From the NCBI GenBank assembly GCA_002427975.1, contig DIZT01000307.1, positions 18,339 through 29,737 of the forward strand: a stretch of 11,399 nucleotides of DNA, in the 5' to 3' direction. The notes under the pieces were generated by a model. That model searched no databases. It saw nothing but the letters and a program-made list of their open reading frames with translations, and was not told the DNA's origin. Source of the stretch: Micrococcaceae bacterium UBA6021 (GTDB lineage: Bacteria > Actinomycetota > Actinomycetes > Actinomycetales > Micrococcaceae). A program made the position numbers and the translations under genes. This document shows, piece after piece, positions 4,608 to 9,944 of this stretch; position 1 is the first letter of the stretch, and each line of letters opens with the position of its first letter.

Positions 4608-4668
4608 CGTCGAAATGACAGATGGCGCAATGGTCATCAAAAAATTGCCGCCATCTGTCATTTCGACG
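4608..4668. repeat. Long palindrome between convergent genes (20-bp perfect arms)
   Basis: Arms at 4608-4627 and 4649-4668 are perfect reverse complements over 20 bp. Past one unpaired C (4648) four more pairs follow, CAAT (4628-4631) with ATTG (4644-4647), leaving a 12-nt loop GGTCATCAAAAA. It lies 7 nt after the DUF3145 stop and 14 nt from the fabF stop. Its position suggests a bidirectional terminator for both genes. There is no U-run after either arm, so it is not a classical intrinsic terminator. It could stop transcripts by Rho or protect 3' ends, or be a copy of a dispersed palindromic repeat. Confidence 0.8.
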
Positions 4669-4682
4669 AGCCCCTGCGATCG

Positions 4683-5918
4683 CTAGATGCTGCGGATAGC
4701 GATCACGGCGTTGTGGCCGCCGAAACCGAACGAGTTGCTCAGCGCCACGATGTCGCCCGCCGGCAGATCCCTGGCCGACGTGACGACGTCGAGCGGAATC
4801 TCGGGGTCCTGGTTCTCAAGGTTGATCGTGACCGGGGCCTTGCGGTGGTAGACGGCCAGCGCAGTGAGCACCGCCTCCACAGCACCGGACGCGCCCAGAA
4901 GGTGGCCCATCTGGGACTTGGTGGCGGATACTGCAACGTTGTCGAGGTGGTTCCCCAGTGATGCGCGGAGCGCCGTGTACTCGGGCTTGTCACCGACGGG
5001 GGTGGAGGTGGCGTGCGCGTTGACGTGCACCACGTCCTCGGCCTGGATCCGGCCATCGAACATGGCTGCCTTCAGCGCACGGGTGGCGCCAAGGCCCTGG
5101 GGGTCCGGGGCGGTGATGTGGTACGCGTCAGCGGTTACGGACGTGCCTGCCAGTTCGCAGTAGATACGGGCGCCGCGGGCCAGGGCGTGCTCCTCAGCCT
5201 CGAGGACCAGCGCACCGGCGCCTTCGCCCATGACAAAGCCGTCACGCCCGAGATCGTACGGACGTGAAGCGCCCTGGGGGTCATCGTTGCGCCGGGAGAG
5301 CGCCTGCATCGAGGAGAAGGCGGCAAGGGGCATGGGGTGGATGGCCGCCTCAGCGCCGCCGCACATCACGACGTCGGCCTTGCCGGAGCGGATCAGTTCC
5401 AAGCCCAGGTGAAGGGCTTCGGTGCCGGACGCGCAGGCCGAAACCGGGGTGTGGGCGCCGGCACGGGCACCAAGGTCAAGGCTGACGGCTGCCGCGACGC
5501 CGTTGGGCATCAGCATGGGCACCGTCATGGGCAGGACGCGACGCGGGCCCTTTTCCTTCAGGGTGTCCCACGCGTCCAGCAGCGTCCAGACACCGCCGAT
5601 ACCGGTGGCGAAAGCAACCGCAAGACGGTCAGGGTCAATTTCCGTGATGCCTGAATCGGCCCAGGCCTCGCGGGAGGCGATCACGCCGAACTGGGTGGAC
5701 GGGTCCATCCGTTTGGCCTCAACGCGGCTCAGGACCTCCAGGGCCGGGGTGGAGCAGCGGGCGGCAAAGTGGACCGGCAGTTCGTACTTGGCGACCCATT
5801 CGTCCTCCAGCGTGCGGGCACCGGAGACCCCCTTCAGCGCATTGTTCCACATGGTGGGTACGTCGCCGCCGATGGGCGTGGTGGCACCCAGACCGGTAAT
5901 GACTACTTTGCGTGTCAT
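4683..5918 (-). CDS. fabF: 3-oxoacyl-ACP synthase II (FabF/KasA-type)
   Basis: A 411-residue beta-ketoacyl-ACP synthase that condenses malonyl-ACP with acyl-ACP, adding two carbons per FAS-II cycle in the cytoplasm. Catalytic residues are all present: C162 (VSACASGT), H302 (VNAHATST), K334 and H339 (KSQMGHLLGASGAVE). These align with C163, H303, K335 and H340 of E. coli FabF. The gatekeeper loop SFGFGGHN (396-403) and the GEGAGALVLE segment are intact. The start ATG has only a weak ribosome binding site (AGAGAG about 8 nt upstream). It is the last gene of the fab block and is separated from acpP by 153 bp that contain a probable terminator, so it may be expressed below acpP. Only one elongating synthase is seen, unlike the kasA-kasB pair of mycobacteria. 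Confidence 0.96.
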   Translation of the reverse strand: MTRKVVITGLGATTPIGGDVPTMWNNALKGVSGARTLEDEWVAKYELPVHFAARCSTPALEVLSRVEAKRMDPSTQFGVIASREAWADSGITEIDPDRLAVAFATGIGGVWTLLDAWDTLKEKGPRRVLPMTVPMLMPNGVAAAVSLDLGARAGAHTPVSACASGTEALHLGLELIRSGKADVVMCGGAEAAIHPMPLAAFSSMQALSRRNDDPQGASRPYDLGRDGFVMGEGAGALVLEAEEHALARGARIYCELAGTSVTADAYHITAPDPQGLGATRALKAAMFDGRIQAEDVVHVNAHATSTPVGDKPEYTALRASLGNHLDNVAVSATKSQMGHLLGASGAVEAVLTALAVYHRKAPVTINLENQDPEIPLDVVTSARDLPAGDIVALSNSFGFGGHNAVIAIRSI

Positions 5919-6071: not shown

Positions 6072-6317
6072 TTAGGCCTGGGCGCCGGCGATGAAGCTGA
6101 CGGCGTCGCCCACGGTCTTGAGGTTCTTGACCTCTTCGTCCGGGATACGCACGCCGAACTTCTCTTCGGCGTTGACCACGATGGTCATCATGGAGATGGA
6201 GTCGATGTCCAGGTCCTCGGTGAAGGACTTGTCGAGCTCTACGGACTCAGGGGCAAGGCCGGTTTCTTCGTTGACGATTTCAGCCAAGCCGGCCAGGATC
6301 TCTTCGTTGCTAGCCAT
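6072..6317 (-). CDS. acpP: Acyl carrier protein
   Basis: An 81-residue acidic four-helix acyl carrier protein that holds growing acyl chains on a 4'-phosphopantetheine arm for all FAS-II enzymes. The attachment serine is S40 in DLDIDSISMM; the usual DSL motif is DSI here. The recognition helix after it, with MMTIVVNAEEKFGV, and the IPDEEVKNLKTVGDAV segment are typical. The ATG at 6317 has a strong AAAGGAG ribosome binding site (6324-6330), 6 nt upstream, in keeping with high expression of an abundant protein. An 81-bp gap separates it from fabH. Downstream is a hairpin terminator before fabF. Confidence 0.97.
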   Translation of the reverse strand: MASNEEILAGLAEIVNEETGLAPESVELDKSFTEDLDIDSISMMTIVVNAEEKFGVRIPDEEVKNLKTVGDAVSFIAGAQA

Positions 6318-6398: not shown

Positions 6399-7460
6399 CT
6401 AAGGAAGGACGATTACCTGGGCGCCGAAGACCAGCCCGGCGCCGAAGCCGATCTGGAGTGCGAGGCCGCCGCTGAGCTCAGGGTTTTCCTTGAGCAGGCG
6501 GTGGGTGGCCAGGGGGATGGAGGCCGCCGAGGTGTTTCCGGCATCGGCGATGTCCCGGGCCACGGTGACGGATTCGGGAAGTTTCAGTTTCTTGACCATC
6601 TCGTCGATGATCCGCATGTTCGCCTGGTGGGGGATGAAGGCTGCAAGGTCGTCAGCCGTGATTCCGGCGACCTCCAGGGCCTGCTGGGCCATCTTCGCCA
6701 TTTCCCAGACGGCCCAGCGGAAGACTGTCTGTCCGTCCTGGCGGAGGGTGGGCCACAGGTCCTGGACTTCTTCCAACAGGGCAAAGTCGCCTGACTCGTC
6801 GGACTGGCGGGCCGCAATGCTCAGGTCACGGACATCCAGCATTGAACGCGTCATGCCGATGGCGTCCCACTTGCTGCCGTCCGAACCCCACACCGACGGC
6901 CCGATGCCGGGCGTGTCCGAGGGGCCGATCACGACCGCGCCGGCGCCGTCGCCAAGCAGGAACGAAATAGTCCGCTCATGGTTGTCAATAACGTCGGAAA
7001 GCTTTTCCGCCCCCACCACCAGGACGTAGGTGGCGGTACCGGCACGCACCAGGGCATCCGCCTGGGCGATGCCGTAGCAGTACCCGGCGCAGGCAGCCGA
7101 AATGTCGAAGGCGGGAGCCGGCGTCGCACCGAGCCTGTCAGCCAAGGCGGCCGCGGCCGACGGAGTGGCGTAAGGGTGGGTGACGGTGGAGACGATGACG
7201 GCTCCCAGCTGGGAGGCTTCGATGCCTGCCTGCTGCAGGGCCTCCCGGGCGGCGCCTTCGGCCATGTCAATGACGCTCACGTTGGCGGCGGCCCGGTGGC
7301 GGGTCACGATGCCGGTCCGTTGGCGGATCCATTCGTCCGAGGAATCAATCCACTGGCAGACGTCGTCGTTGGTGACGATGACGTCAGGCCGGAATGCGCC
7401 GAGTCCGATGATGCGGCTGTGCTGGTTTACGGGAAGCTGTTTCAGCGTGGGAACGCTCAT
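6399..7460 (-). CDS. fabH: 3-oxoacyl-ACP synthase III (FabH)
   Basis: A 353-residue ketoacyl synthase III that starts each fatty acid by condensing an acyl-CoA primer with malonyl-ACP. In Micrococcaceae, rich in anteiso and iso acids, the primer is probably a branched short-chain acyl-CoA; that is inferred. The catalytic triad is C124 (SAACAGYCYG), H278 (FIPHQAN) and N309 (AGNTSAAS). The early motif DEWIRQRTGI (42-51) and the C-terminal GFGAGLVFGAQVI are intact. The Cys-His distance is 154 residues against 132 in E. coli FabH; the extra length falls at about residues 205-242, before QTVFRWAV. The start ATG overlaps the fabD stop by 4 nt (ATGA), with GGAGGGA 5 nt upstream inside fabD, so translation is coupled to fabD. 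Confidence 0.96.
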   Translation of the reverse strand: MSVPTLKQLPVNQHSRIIGLGAFRPDVIVTNDDVCQWIDSSDEWIRQRTGIVTRHRAAANVSVIDMAEGAAREALQQAGIEASQLGAVIVSTVTHPYATPSAAAALADRLGATPAPAFDISAACAGYCYGIAQADALVRAGTATYVLVVGAEKLSDVIDNHERTISFLLGDGAGAVVIGPSDTPGIGPSVWGSDGSKWDAIGMTRSMLDVRDLSIAARQSDESGDFALLEEVQDLWPTLRQDGQTVFRWAVWEMAKMAQQALEVAGITADDLAAFIPHQANMRIIDEMVKKLKLPESVTVARDIADAGNTSAASIPLATHRLLKENPELSGGLALQIGFGAGLVFGAQVIVLP

Positions 7461-8386
7461 GCATTTCCCTCCAATTCTGCGAAGAGTGCCAGCGCGGCCG
7501 TGAGGTCGTCCGGGGTTTTGACTGCAATGGTCTTGACGCCGGGCATGCCGCGTTTGGCGAGCCCGGCCAGGGTGCCAGCCGGGGCCAGCTCAATGACGCC
7601 TGTGACGCCGCGCTGCACGAGTGTTTCCATGCACAGGTCCCAGCGGACCGGCCGGGAGACCTGCGCGATGAGGCTCTCGACGGCTGCGCCGCCGTCGGAG
7701 ACTTCACGGCCGTCAAAGTTGGACAGCAGCGGCACCTGCGGCTTCTGTGGCTTGAGGCCCGGCTTCAGCGCCTCGAGGGCGCTTACAGCGGGGGACATGT
7801 GTGAGGTGTGGAACGCTCCAGCCACCTTCAGCGGGATGACGCGCGCCTTGGCCGGCGGGTTGTCCGCCAGGGCCTTGAGCTGTTCGAAGGTTCCGGCAGC
7901 TACAGTCTGGCCCGCGCCATTGACGTTGGCCGGTGTCGCGCCGGAAGCCTCGATGGCGGCCAGGACCTCTGCCGGGTCCCCGCCCACCACTGCACTCATG
8001 CCGGTGGGAGTCACGGCGGCGGCCGCAGCCATGCTGTTGGCGCGTTCACGGACGAACGTCATGGCTTCCTGCTCGGTGAGCACGCCGGCGAGGGCCGAGG
8101 CGGTGATCTCGCCCACGGAGTGTCCGGCAAGGATCACCGGGAGTGTGCCGAGTTCGACGTCGAACAGCGACTTCGCGGCAACCAGCCCGGCGGCAACAAT
8201 CAGGGGCTGCGCAACAGCGGTGTCCTTGATGGTTTCCTCATCCGAGGTGGTCCCGTGGGCTATCAGGTCGATGCCTGCGATCTCACTGAGGGAGGCCAGA
8301 TGGCCTGCTACCGAAGGCAGTTCCAGCCAAGGGGCCAGAAAACCCGGGGTCTGTGAGCCCTGTCCAGGGCAGACTATTGCAAGCAC
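7457..8386 (-). CDS. fabD: Malonyl-CoA:ACP transacylase (FabD)
   Basis: A 309-residue malonyl-CoA:ACP acyltransferase that moves malonyl from CoA to AcpP, making the extender for FabH and FabF. The N-terminal GQGSQ (8-12), the nucleophile S90 in GHSVGE (88-93), R115, H193 in AFHTSHM and Q242 in AQVSRPVRW match the catalytic set of E. coli FabD (S92, R117, H201, Q250). NGAGQTVAAG replaces the usual N-P-Q-V region in a typical way. The start is GTG at 8386 and sits directly before the conserved core LAIVCPGQG; GGAAAG lies 8 nt upstream. It is the first fab gene, 87 bp after fasR, and a palindromic operator candidate occupies that gap, so it probably has its own promoter. Confidence 0.96.
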   Translation of the reverse strand: MLAIVCPGQGSQTPGFLAPWLELPSVAGHLASLSEIAGIDLIAHGTTSDEETIKDTAVAQPLIVAAGLVAAKSLFDVELGTLPVILAGHSVGEITASALAGVLTEQEAMTFVRERANSMAAAAAVTPTGMSAVVGGDPAEVLAAIEASGATPANVNGAGQTVAAGTFEQLKALADNPPAKARVIPLKVAGAFHTSHMSPAVSALEALKPGLKPQKPQVPLLSNFDGREVSDGGAAVESLIAQVSRPVRWDLCMETLVQRGVTGVIELAPAGTLAGLAKRGMPGVKTIAVKTPDDLTAALALFAELEGNA

Positions 8387-8452
8387 GTATCCAGCTTTCC
8401 AAATTACGGGTCATCCAGCGGTGTTTCTCTGCACCAAGCTCAAGGGGTCAGA

Positions 8453-8469
8453 TTGTAGGAAGTCTACAA
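8453..8469 (-). promoter_or_regulatory. Candidate FasR operator upstream of fabD
   Basis: On the - strand the site reads TTGTAGACTTCCTACAA, a perfect inverted repeat of 6-bp half-sites TTGTAG and CTACAA around 5 nt. It starts 4 nt after the fasR stop codon and ends 66 nt before the fabD start. A near copy lies before fasR at 9755-9771 (13 of 17 identical). Just downstream, CTGACC (8446-8451) is a possible -35, but no good -10 follows at 16-18 nt. Alternatively TAATTT (8401-8406) could be the -10, which would put the operator near -67. FasR of Streptomyces and MabR of mycobacteria are known to bind before fabD and control these genes; that this is the bound site is inferred. Confidence 0.7.
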
Positions 8470-8473
8470 CGAC

Positions 8474-9718
8474 TCACGGCTGATTCCGCGCCGGATGACG
8501 CTCGGCCGGGGCTTTTGGCGGCACCGAAAGCCGCCCGACCACCAACGCCGCCTGCAGCACAAACGCTTCCCGGGGGAGGAGCGGATCCCAGCCGGTGACG
8601 TCGCAGACGCGCTTGAGCCGGTACCTGACGGTGTTGGCGTGGACAAACAATTCGCGGGCAGTCGCCTCAAGGGAATGGCCCAACTCCAGGTAGGTGCCCA
8701 GGGTCTCGACCAGCCCGTTGGAAGCAGCGACAAGCGGACGGTAGATGTTCTTCACCAGAGAGCGGCGGGCCGCCTCGTCACCCGAGATGACGCGTTCCGG
8801 CAGAAGGTCATCGGCCGCCACGGGCCGTGGAGCGGAGGGCCAGGCCCTAGCGGCGGTCAGACCGGCAAAGGCAGACTGCGCTGATCCGCTGGCCTCCAGC
8901 AGGGAACCGGCTTCCGGGCCGTAGACAACGGGGCCGGGGGCGAACATTTCGCTGAGCTTCAGGTACGCGGTCTCGCGGTCCTGGACGCCGCCAAGGATCA
9001 GGATGAGCCGGTCGCCCTGGATGCCCACCAACGCATCCTCGGCGTAGCGGCCTGCCAGGCGGCGGAGTTCGCTGACGTAGCTGGCGCTGGGTTCAGACGG
9101 CGAATTGCCCACCATCACGGTGAACCTTTCCTGCGCCTTCCAGCCTAGCGCGGCGATCCGGGACCTTAGCGCGTCTGTGTTTTCGCCGCGCAGGATGGCG
9201 TCCACGATCAGCGCTTCCAGCCGGGTGTCCCAGGATCCGCGGGATTCGGCGGCCCGTGCATAAACGTCGGCGGCGGCGAAGGCCACTTCCCGCGAGTACC
9301 GGAGGACGGCTTCGCGGAGCGAGGGCTGGTCGGCTTCGGGGGCAATGACCGGCACCTGGTCTTCCACGACTTCAACCACGATCCGGATGAGCTGGAGCGC
9401 CTTCTGAAGACTGATGGACCGCGTCAGTTCGGTGGGTGCTGTTCCAAAGACATCGGTGAGGATCCACGACGGAGAGCTGGGCCGCTCGTACCAGGTGACA
9501 AACGCCGCGATGCCGTTTTGCGCCACCATGCCCAGGGCCGAGCGCTCATCGGAGCTGAGCCGGGAATACCACGGCAGTGACTTCTCCAGCTGGCGCAGGG
9601 TAGTGGTGGAGAGGTGTCCCACGCTTGACCGGAGCTTTTTCAGGGTTTCGGATTTCTCCGGCGTCATGCTGCGCGAGGACGGTTTGCGCTTCGCGGGCGG
9701 GGTGGTTGGCTCTGGCAT
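8474..9718 (-). CDS. fasR: PucR-family transcriptional regulator of fatty-acid synthesis (FasR/MabR-like)
   Basis: A 414-residue cytoplasmic regulator. The C-terminus carries the PucR-type helix-turn-helix (about 336-395), with SLEATARELFVHANTVRYRLKRV (349-371). The middle (about 150-280) has the degenerate GGDEF-like fold common in CdaR/PucR proteins, seen in the stretch that ends in GDRLILILGG. The N-terminal 120 residues are a helical region probably used for ligand sensing. Its place directly before fabD identifies it as the ortholog of Streptomyces FasR and mycobacterial MabR, activators of FAS-II genes that respond to acyl-CoA. An ATG at 9754 would add 12 residues but lies in the -35 region and has no ribosome binding site. 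The ATG at 9718 directly follows a -10 element and fits leaderless initiation. Palindromic sites before fasR and before fabD suggest that it regulates both. Confidence 0.9.
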   Translation of the reverse strand: MPEPTTPPAKRKPSSRSMTPEKSETLKKLRSSVGHLSTTTLRQLEKSLPWYSRLSSDERSALGMVAQNGIAAFVTWYERPSSPSWILTDVFGTAPTELTRSISLQKALQLIRIVVEVVEDQVPVIAPEADQPSLREAVLRYSREVAFAAADVYARAAESRGSWDTRLEALIVDAILRGENTDALRSRIAALGWKAQERFTVMVGNSPSEPSASYVSELRRLAGRYAEDALVGIQGDRLILILGGVQDRETAYLKLSEMFAPGPVVYGPEAGSLLEASGSAQSAFAGLTAARAWPSAPRPVAADDLLPERVISGDEAARRSLVKNIYRPLVAASNGLVETLGTYLELGHSLEATARELFVHANTVRYRLKRVCDVTGWDPLLPREAFVLQAALVVGRLSVPPKAPAERHPARNQP

Positions 9719-9753
9719 CCTTCGAGCATACGGTGCCTGCCCGGCAAGCTCCA
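9719..9753 (-). promoter_or_regulatory. Predicted leaderless promoter of fasR
   Basis: The -10 hexamer TATGCT (9730-9725) fits the actinobacterial TANNNT pattern and is followed by exactly 6 nt, CGAAGG, before the ATG at 9718. Transcription would therefore begin at the A of the start codon. With a 17-nt spacer the -35 position (9753-9748) reads TGGAGC, a poor match, as expected for a promoter that needs an activator. The candidate operator at 9755-9771 abuts it. Confidence 0.5.
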
Positions 9754-9754
9754 T

Positions 9755-9771
9755 TTGTGCAAAGGCTACAA
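9755..9771 (-). promoter_or_regulatory. Candidate FasR operator upstream of fasR
   Basis: On the - strand it reads TTGTAGCCTTTGCACAA, an imperfect inverted repeat with outer arms TTGT and ACAA separated by 9 nt. It shares 13 of 17 positions with the site before fabD, including TTGTAG, the central CTT and ACAA. It is centred at -45 from the predicted leaderless start and lies next to the -35 position, a common place for an activator that touches RNA polymerase. Autoregulation by FasR is inferred. Confidence 0.65.
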
Positions 9772-9817: not shown

Positions 9818-9879
9818 GAGGGAACGACGACGGCGACCCTCACCTTTTGGTGAGTGCCGCCGTCGTCGTCAAATCCCTC
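9818..9879 (-). terminator. Strong compound hairpin between aceE and fasR
   Basis: Nested complementary arms: GAGGG/CCCTC at the base (9818-9822, 9875-9879), a perfect 12-bp stem ACGACGACGGCG/CGCCGTCGTCGT (9824-9835, 9858-9869), and a 6-bp tip CTCACC/GGTGAG (9839-9844, 9849-9854) closing on a 4-nt loop. It follows aceE by 77 nt on the - strand and probably ends its transcript. The bases after it lack a clear U-run, so Rho-independent action is uncertain. Confidence 0.55.
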
Positions 9880-9881
9880 GA

Positions 9882-9944
9882 GAGTTTTTGTCCAGATAAT
9901 CGGCCGATCGGGGCCTTTTGGGGGTGTTATCTGGACAAAAACTC
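9882..9944. repeat. Palindrome with 18-bp perfect arms downstream of aceE
   Basis: GAGTTTTTGTCCAGATAA (9882-9899) and its exact reverse complement (9927-9944) flank a 27-bp centre rich in G and C, which itself contains the palindrome ATCGGCCGAT (9899-9908). The element begins 12 nt after the aceE stop. The T-run lies in the 5' arm and the A-run in the 3' arm on either strand, so no U-tract follows the hairpin and it is not a classical terminator. A dispersed palindromic repeat or an mRNA 3'-end stabiliser fits better. Confidence 0.8.

Follow-up and report, generated by a model that had tools for sequence, protein, structure and literature searches.

A PucR-type regulator gene, fasR, lies between two similar 17-bp palindromes, one before fabD and one before fasR itself, and this arrangement raises the question whether the encoded protein reads both sites and so governs its own gene along with the FAS-II genes. 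The stretch of DNA analysed, referred to here as the window, comprises 11,399 nt of Micrococcaceae bacterium UBA6021 (GCA_002427975.1, contig DIZT01000307.1, positions 18,339-29,737, forward strand). The following features are relevant.

4683..5918, - strand: fabF
6072..6317, - strand: acpP, acyl carrier protein (PF00550, E 4.4e-14)
6399..7460, - strand: fabH
7457..8386, - strand: fabD, first gene of the FAS-II cluster, GTG start
8432..8437, - strand: conserved element TTGGTG, displaced by 32 bp from the start of the fabD operator
8453..8469, - strand: predicted FasR operator before fabD, TTGTAGACTTCCTACAA, with perfect 6-bp arms TTGTAG/CTACAA
8474..9718, - strand: fasR, PucR-type regulator (HTH_30, GGDEF_2) by Pfam and MabR chain matches, with an in-frame upstream ATG at 9754
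9725..9730, - strand: probable -10 box TATGCT of a putative leaderless fasR promoter, the ATG 6 bases further on
9755..9771, - strand: probable FasR operator before fasR, TTGTAGCCTTTGCACAA, with imperfect arms in which 4 of 6 arm positions pair

The two palindromes and their probable regulator

A preliminary description of this DNA had placed the two 17-mers at these positions of the - strand with 13 of 17 positions shared, and checking the letters confirmed both of them and, by direct comparison, the number of shared positions. The fabD operator lies 4 nt past the fasR stop codon and 66 nt ahead of the fabD GTG, and the inverted repeat TTGT-N9-ACAA is present in the fabD promoter both in the window and in the wider loci described below. 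The second site, described earlier as lying in a short gap upstream of fasR, is indeed upstream, but 36 nt before the probable start codon (ATG 9718-9716) rather than abutting the ATG at 9754. Strong inverted repeats at 9824-9869 and 9882-9944, between an aceE-like gene and fasR, are probably terminators, consistent with a separate fasR promoter. A 20-bp perfect inverted repeat at 4608-4668, located after fabF between two convergent genes, is probably a two-way terminator.

FasR contains a C-terminal PucR helix-turn-helix with a GGDEF-like domain (PF13556, E 1.2e-19; PF17853, E 5.8e-14). It matches the solved C-terminal part of MabR (chain 9f80, E 3.3e-56), and its residues 21-158 match the globin-like N-terminal part of MabR (chain 9fb1, E 4.1e-21, sequence only). 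Judged by its sequence, the fasR product is a MabR homologue. As described in the available text of PMC5541348, MabR is an activator which responds to long-chain acyl-CoA and binds TTTTGT(N)9ACAAAA, and its S. coelicolor orthologue FasR (SCO2386) activates the fab operon through a highly similar inverted repeat, located at about -67 in the fab promoter. The window shares with the mycobacterial fas-II system of MabR (Rv2242) the TTGT-N9-ACAA core and its spacing, the regulator gene adjoining fabD, and a homologous regulator. The full MabR arms TTTTGT/ACAAAA are not found, since in the window each arm departs from MabR at its two outermost positions (TT/AA); the conserved arm form in the window and its relatives is TTGTAG/CTACAA, with the inner AG/CT kept. 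Unlike the MabR system, the present one has a second copy before the regulator gene and further copies before acc, accDE and biotin genes, and the available part of PMC5541348 mentions no own-gene or acc/biotin site for SCO2386. The explicit site, which had been presented as read from the sequence, is therefore real but only partly new, the MabR motif having already been published (PMC5541348, available text). The mycobacterial protein also called FasR shares the name and the control of fatty acid genes, but it is a TetR-like protein (PMC7382501, available text) and different from that of the window.

Conservation, frequency and co-occurrence with fasR

Close relatives were compared as the best 80 of 215 relatives, all titled Arthrobacter or Pseudarthrobacter and hence named loci here; like the wider loci below, they share ancestry and do not form an independent sample. 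As in the window, fasR lies directly upstream of fabD in all 80, with a gap of 90-97 nt from the match end, and both sites are kept in all 80. The fabD site is identical throughout, spacer included, and the mean identity of its columns is 1.000 versus 0.781 in the flanks. The fasR site retains TTGT-N9-ACAA in 80/80, with variation at three inner positions and a mean column identity of 0.968 versus 0.596 in the flanks. In one genome the fasR match (G030:C1:2146274-2147512) carries two internal TGA codons, which points either to a disrupted gene or to an error in the sequence. The spacer of the fabD operator (window 8459-8463), invariant in the 80 named loci, recurs in many other genera, unlike the acc site spacer, which varies freely.

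Conservation before fabD, on which the preliminary description had staked its proposal, extends well beyond these relatives. Among 31 family loci (one each from 30 other Micrococcaceae genera and one more of the source genus), every one keeps six or more of the 8 core bases of the fabD site at -83 to -85; at order level, for which 18 loci were fetched and 16 had fabD adjoining fasR, the site is present in 15/16, and at class level in 20/20 (one at -99). When recounted by script at -83 to -86 of the fabD start, 65/67 fasR-bearing loci match the 8-base core at six or more positions and 60/67 at seven or more. The same expectation for fasR is borne out in the family and the order but largely fails in the class: by hand count, a site matching the 8-base core at seven or more positions occurs in 21/31 family loci (missing in 10/31) and 13/16 order loci, whereas only 6/20 class loci have a fasR site and 14/20 lack one, which makes 40 of the 67 wider loci with such a match. 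Because the fasR copy is less widespread, autoregulation suits the family and the order better than the whole class, and for Micrococcaceae these comparisons make autoregulation of fasR, be it positive or negative, likely.

Simple counts of the motif gave a mixed answer on whether it occurs at random frequency. With up to one mismatch, TTGT-N9-ACAA has three matches in the window versus 1.44 expected, and 38 of 200 shuffles reach three, so the window count of this loose 8-base pattern is not significant. Over the whole genome, its 17 exact matches versus 23 of a reversed control amount to background; the loose pattern was therefore rejected as a regulon finder in favour of matrices and the 12-base form. 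The 12-base form, TTGTAG-N5-CTACAA, is rare: it occurs twice in the source assembly (3.79 Mb, 83% complete) with no match of the reversed control, and in a survey of 37 genomes of the source genus 32 had two copies, three had a single copy and two had three copies, the reversed control giving 0 to 3 per genome. Outside the source genus, the same survey found it in one of 22 genomes. When one mismatch was allowed across 12 whole genomes, 57 sites were found versus 122 for the reversed control, so that counts alone carry no weight and only the positions of sites do. What sets the window sites apart from chance is their place and conservation.

A matrix trained on fabD sites only, with a pass threshold of 10, links the site to the presence of the regulator. 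At the fixed place before fabD, 62 of 67 fasR-bearing loci pass, a set which includes the training loci, versus none of six loci without detected fasR. These six come from 12 genomes with no FasR listed, at thresholds that differed (E 1e-3, 1e-40 and 1e-30), in which fabD was matched in six; for four of these, the DNA fetched with fabD also shows aceE. Their best score was 3.5 at the usual place and 8.3 anywhere in 300 nt, and the nearest misses were a site with 6 of 8 core bases and poor symmetry at -84 (L284) and one with 7 of 8 at -139 (L285). The motif thus keeps a fixed place before fabD and is absent where no fasR was detected. The operator class is already known, as the fasR product is a MabR homologue, TTGT-N9-ACAA is the core of the MabR site and the fabD-matrix match tracks the presence of fasR; the window sites add a member to this class. 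The identity of the regulator as FasR, the fabD operator and its conservation all hold up, and the comparisons support the window palindromes as FasR operators. Applied to fasR promoters, the same matrix passes 32/68, whereas dinucleotide-shuffled regions, for fasR as well as for the acc, accD, bioB and bioY promoters treated below, gave a mean of at most 0.12 passes and a maximum of 1.

Sites before carboxylase and biotin genes

Upstream of acyl-CoA carboxylase genes, where the preliminary description had suggested looking, a site was found that is conserved in Micrococcaceae. In the source genome, the second perfect TTGTAG-N5-CTACAA is situated between maf and acc, the gene for biotin carboxylase (L003:1501-1517, that is, G000:C176:3378-3394). 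Of 30 perfect-site loci examined, 18 are at acc, 90-94 nt before the start, with the arms kept and the spacer varying. The remainder comprise ten fabD sites of the source genus, recognized as such by the adjacent fasR match, the fabD site of another genome (L144 of G044), and one locus outside the assigned set (L151). Among the 57 near-matches of the 12 scanned genomes, 45 lie, by our own assignment, before fabD (12), acc (12, one of them, in G004, assigned by its letters and its place near accD), accD (12), bioY (5), bioB (3) or fasR (1). Sites inside coding genes, namely one within an aminotransferase gene of L001, which by its letters recurs in G004 and G016, and one within the gene of L006, were discounted as chance occurrences.

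The accD site, present in 12/12 scanned genomes and located in the source genome at L301:2001-2017 (G000:C204:3665-3681), occupies a divergent gap with accD-accE on one side and, on the other, an SDR gene followed by birA (9/12) or birA without a detected SDR gene (3/12). FasR-type sites were also seen before bioY (L318:2001-2017) and bioB (L007:1501-1517). With the fabD-only matrix, acc promoters pass in 29 of 31 family loci (30 of 31 searched family genomes fetched, plus the window's own), and G069, a family genome with FasR, has no acc site. Only 7 of 22 order loci pass, although most of these genomes have FasR, and the acc site was therefore rejected as a universal feature. The accD promoters pass in 12/12, the loci having been found by the motif scan and thus not forming an independent sample. 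For bioB the matrix passes 11/11 in two genera only (10 of 26 searched genomes had the gene, nine of them of the source genus, and the window's own was added), and for bioY it passes 14 of 30 loci scored, the gene being present in 34 of 38 genomes, whereas 16/30 have no site.

Among genomes without fasR, G060, the only such family genome with acc and bioY fetched, has a site before neither; three order genomes of this kind have no full-core acc site, as is also the case for many order genomes with FasR. No FasR regulon of carboxylase and biotin genes was reported in the literature searched, as judged largely on titles and abstract openings, and this part of the proposed regulon is a prediction that goes beyond the reports found there.

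Promoter geometry and proposed mode of action

The position of the operators relative to the promoter bears on whether FasR would activate or repress. A TANNNT box lies 39 bp from the operator start in 11/12 accD, 11/14 bioY and 10/11 bioB promoters, which puts the operator centre near -44, and positions around -44 are usual for activators. At acc the box lies at 77-78 bp in 26/29 promoters. Among the 32 fasR promoters that pass the matrix, it lies at 41-42 bp in 14, and in seven, mostly of other families, at 25-26 bp, where the operator overlaps the -35 region. No TANNNT offset stands out in fabD promoters, and their -10 box could not be fixed. A displacement of 32 bp does stand out among 64 fabD promoters (z 4.9), and none of 66 scores more than 3 bits there; the TTGGTG element at 8432..8437 may serve as a -35 box, or it may be a second, weak site.

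Weaker second sites accompany the strong ones at 53-54 bp in acc (z 5.4 and 6.5), 64 bp in accD (z 6.6), and 33 bp (z 4.7) and 65 bp (z 3.0) in bioY. Second sites scoring at least 4 occur in 29 of 169 promoters, whereas letter-shuffled flanks averaged 2.5 and never exceeded 7. Displacements of 32-34, 53-54 or 64-67 bp, three classes chosen after seeing the list, account for 25 of the 29, the other four being 56, 74, 77 and 87, and these classes correspond approximately to 3, 5 and 6 helical turns.

Some of these positions would suit a repressor, and it is conceivable, though we consider activation the better reading, that FasR represses at some sites, such as those of its own gene and acc, where the site would overlap the -35 to -10 region. 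Besides the seven fasR promoters in which a mere 25-26 bp separate the operator start from TANNNT, there is the weak site of acc, with its start some 24 bp upstream of TAGGCT, and by our reckoning the weak sites of accD and bioY are downstream of the likely transcription start. However, the strong accD, bioY and bioB sites are at an activator-like place, and activation of the fas-II operon is described for both FasR of S. coelicolor and MabR of mycobacteria (PMC5541348, available text).

It is unlikely that some of the sites, for example those of bioB, bioY or acc, are read by a different regulator whose palindrome is similar. Actinobacterial biotin genes are known to be controlled by BioQ, a TetR family protein which recognizes TGAAC-N3-GTTCA (available parts of PMC3398298 and PMC11089781), and most of the genomes studied here also contain weaker PucR-type matches. 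Of the 16 bioY promoters that lack a FasR-type site, 8 carry a BioQ-type motif (TGAAC-N3-GTTCA or -GATCA), as against none of the 14 that have such a site (motif from the available part of PMC3398298). BioQ, although it likewise acts on biotin genes, has a different motif, which among these 30 promoters is seen only where the FasR-type site is missing, and the sites in question fit the fabD-only matrix rather than the BioQ motif. Furthermore, the fasR-less G060 has no such site at either acc or bioY. Across Micrococcaceae, FasR-type sites alternate with BioQ-type repeats before bioY.

Slightly less probable still is that only the fabD site is a FasR operator and the fasR copy a coincidence or a different element, with no autoregulation: the copy is imperfect, its loose pattern is at genome-wide background and most class loci lack it, but its retention in all named loci well above the identity of the flanks, its presence in most order and family loci, and the passing of 32/68 fasR promoters by a matrix built on fabD sites, versus 0.12 on average in shuffles, argue against chance.

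We regard it as quite probable that the palindromes are sites for the PucR-type FasR encoded between them, the wider acc/biotin set and the mechanism included. A FasR dimer would bind each site, its two helix-turn-helix domains reading TTGT and ACAA in adjacent major grooves. At fabD, FasR would activate from upstream of the promoter and respond to long-chain acyl-CoA as MabR does, and at fasR a site beside the -35 region would set the level of FasR itself. In Micrococcaceae, FasR probably also binds before acc, accDE/SDR-birA and bioB, and in some genera before bioY, and biotin supply, carboxylation and FAS-II would thereby be adjusted together. The weaker second sites at near-whole helical turns suggest that two FasR dimers may act together at acc, accDE and bioY. 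Joint binding is put forward here only as an inference, because MabR forms tetramers in solution, yet electron microscopy favours dimers on a 23-bp site (PMC11617747, available text), which speaks against a bridging tetramer.

In its most extended form, to which we give about even credence, the proposal makes FasR a master regulator in Micrococcaceae of biotin uptake, synthesis and ligase, both carboxylase subunits, FAS-II and its own gene. Two dimers would together occupy a strong site and a weak, helically phased one about 3, 5 or 6 turns away, and at bioY FasR and BioQ would have exchanged places within this one family. Paired, phased sites would offer a use for the MabR tetramers, and the wider set would supply exact DNA sites for gel shifts. 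The carboxylase and biotin prediction is a more interesting result than the window sites themselves: if true, a single activator that senses acyl-CoA would link biotin, malonyl-CoA and fatty acid synthesis across a large group of soil bacteria.
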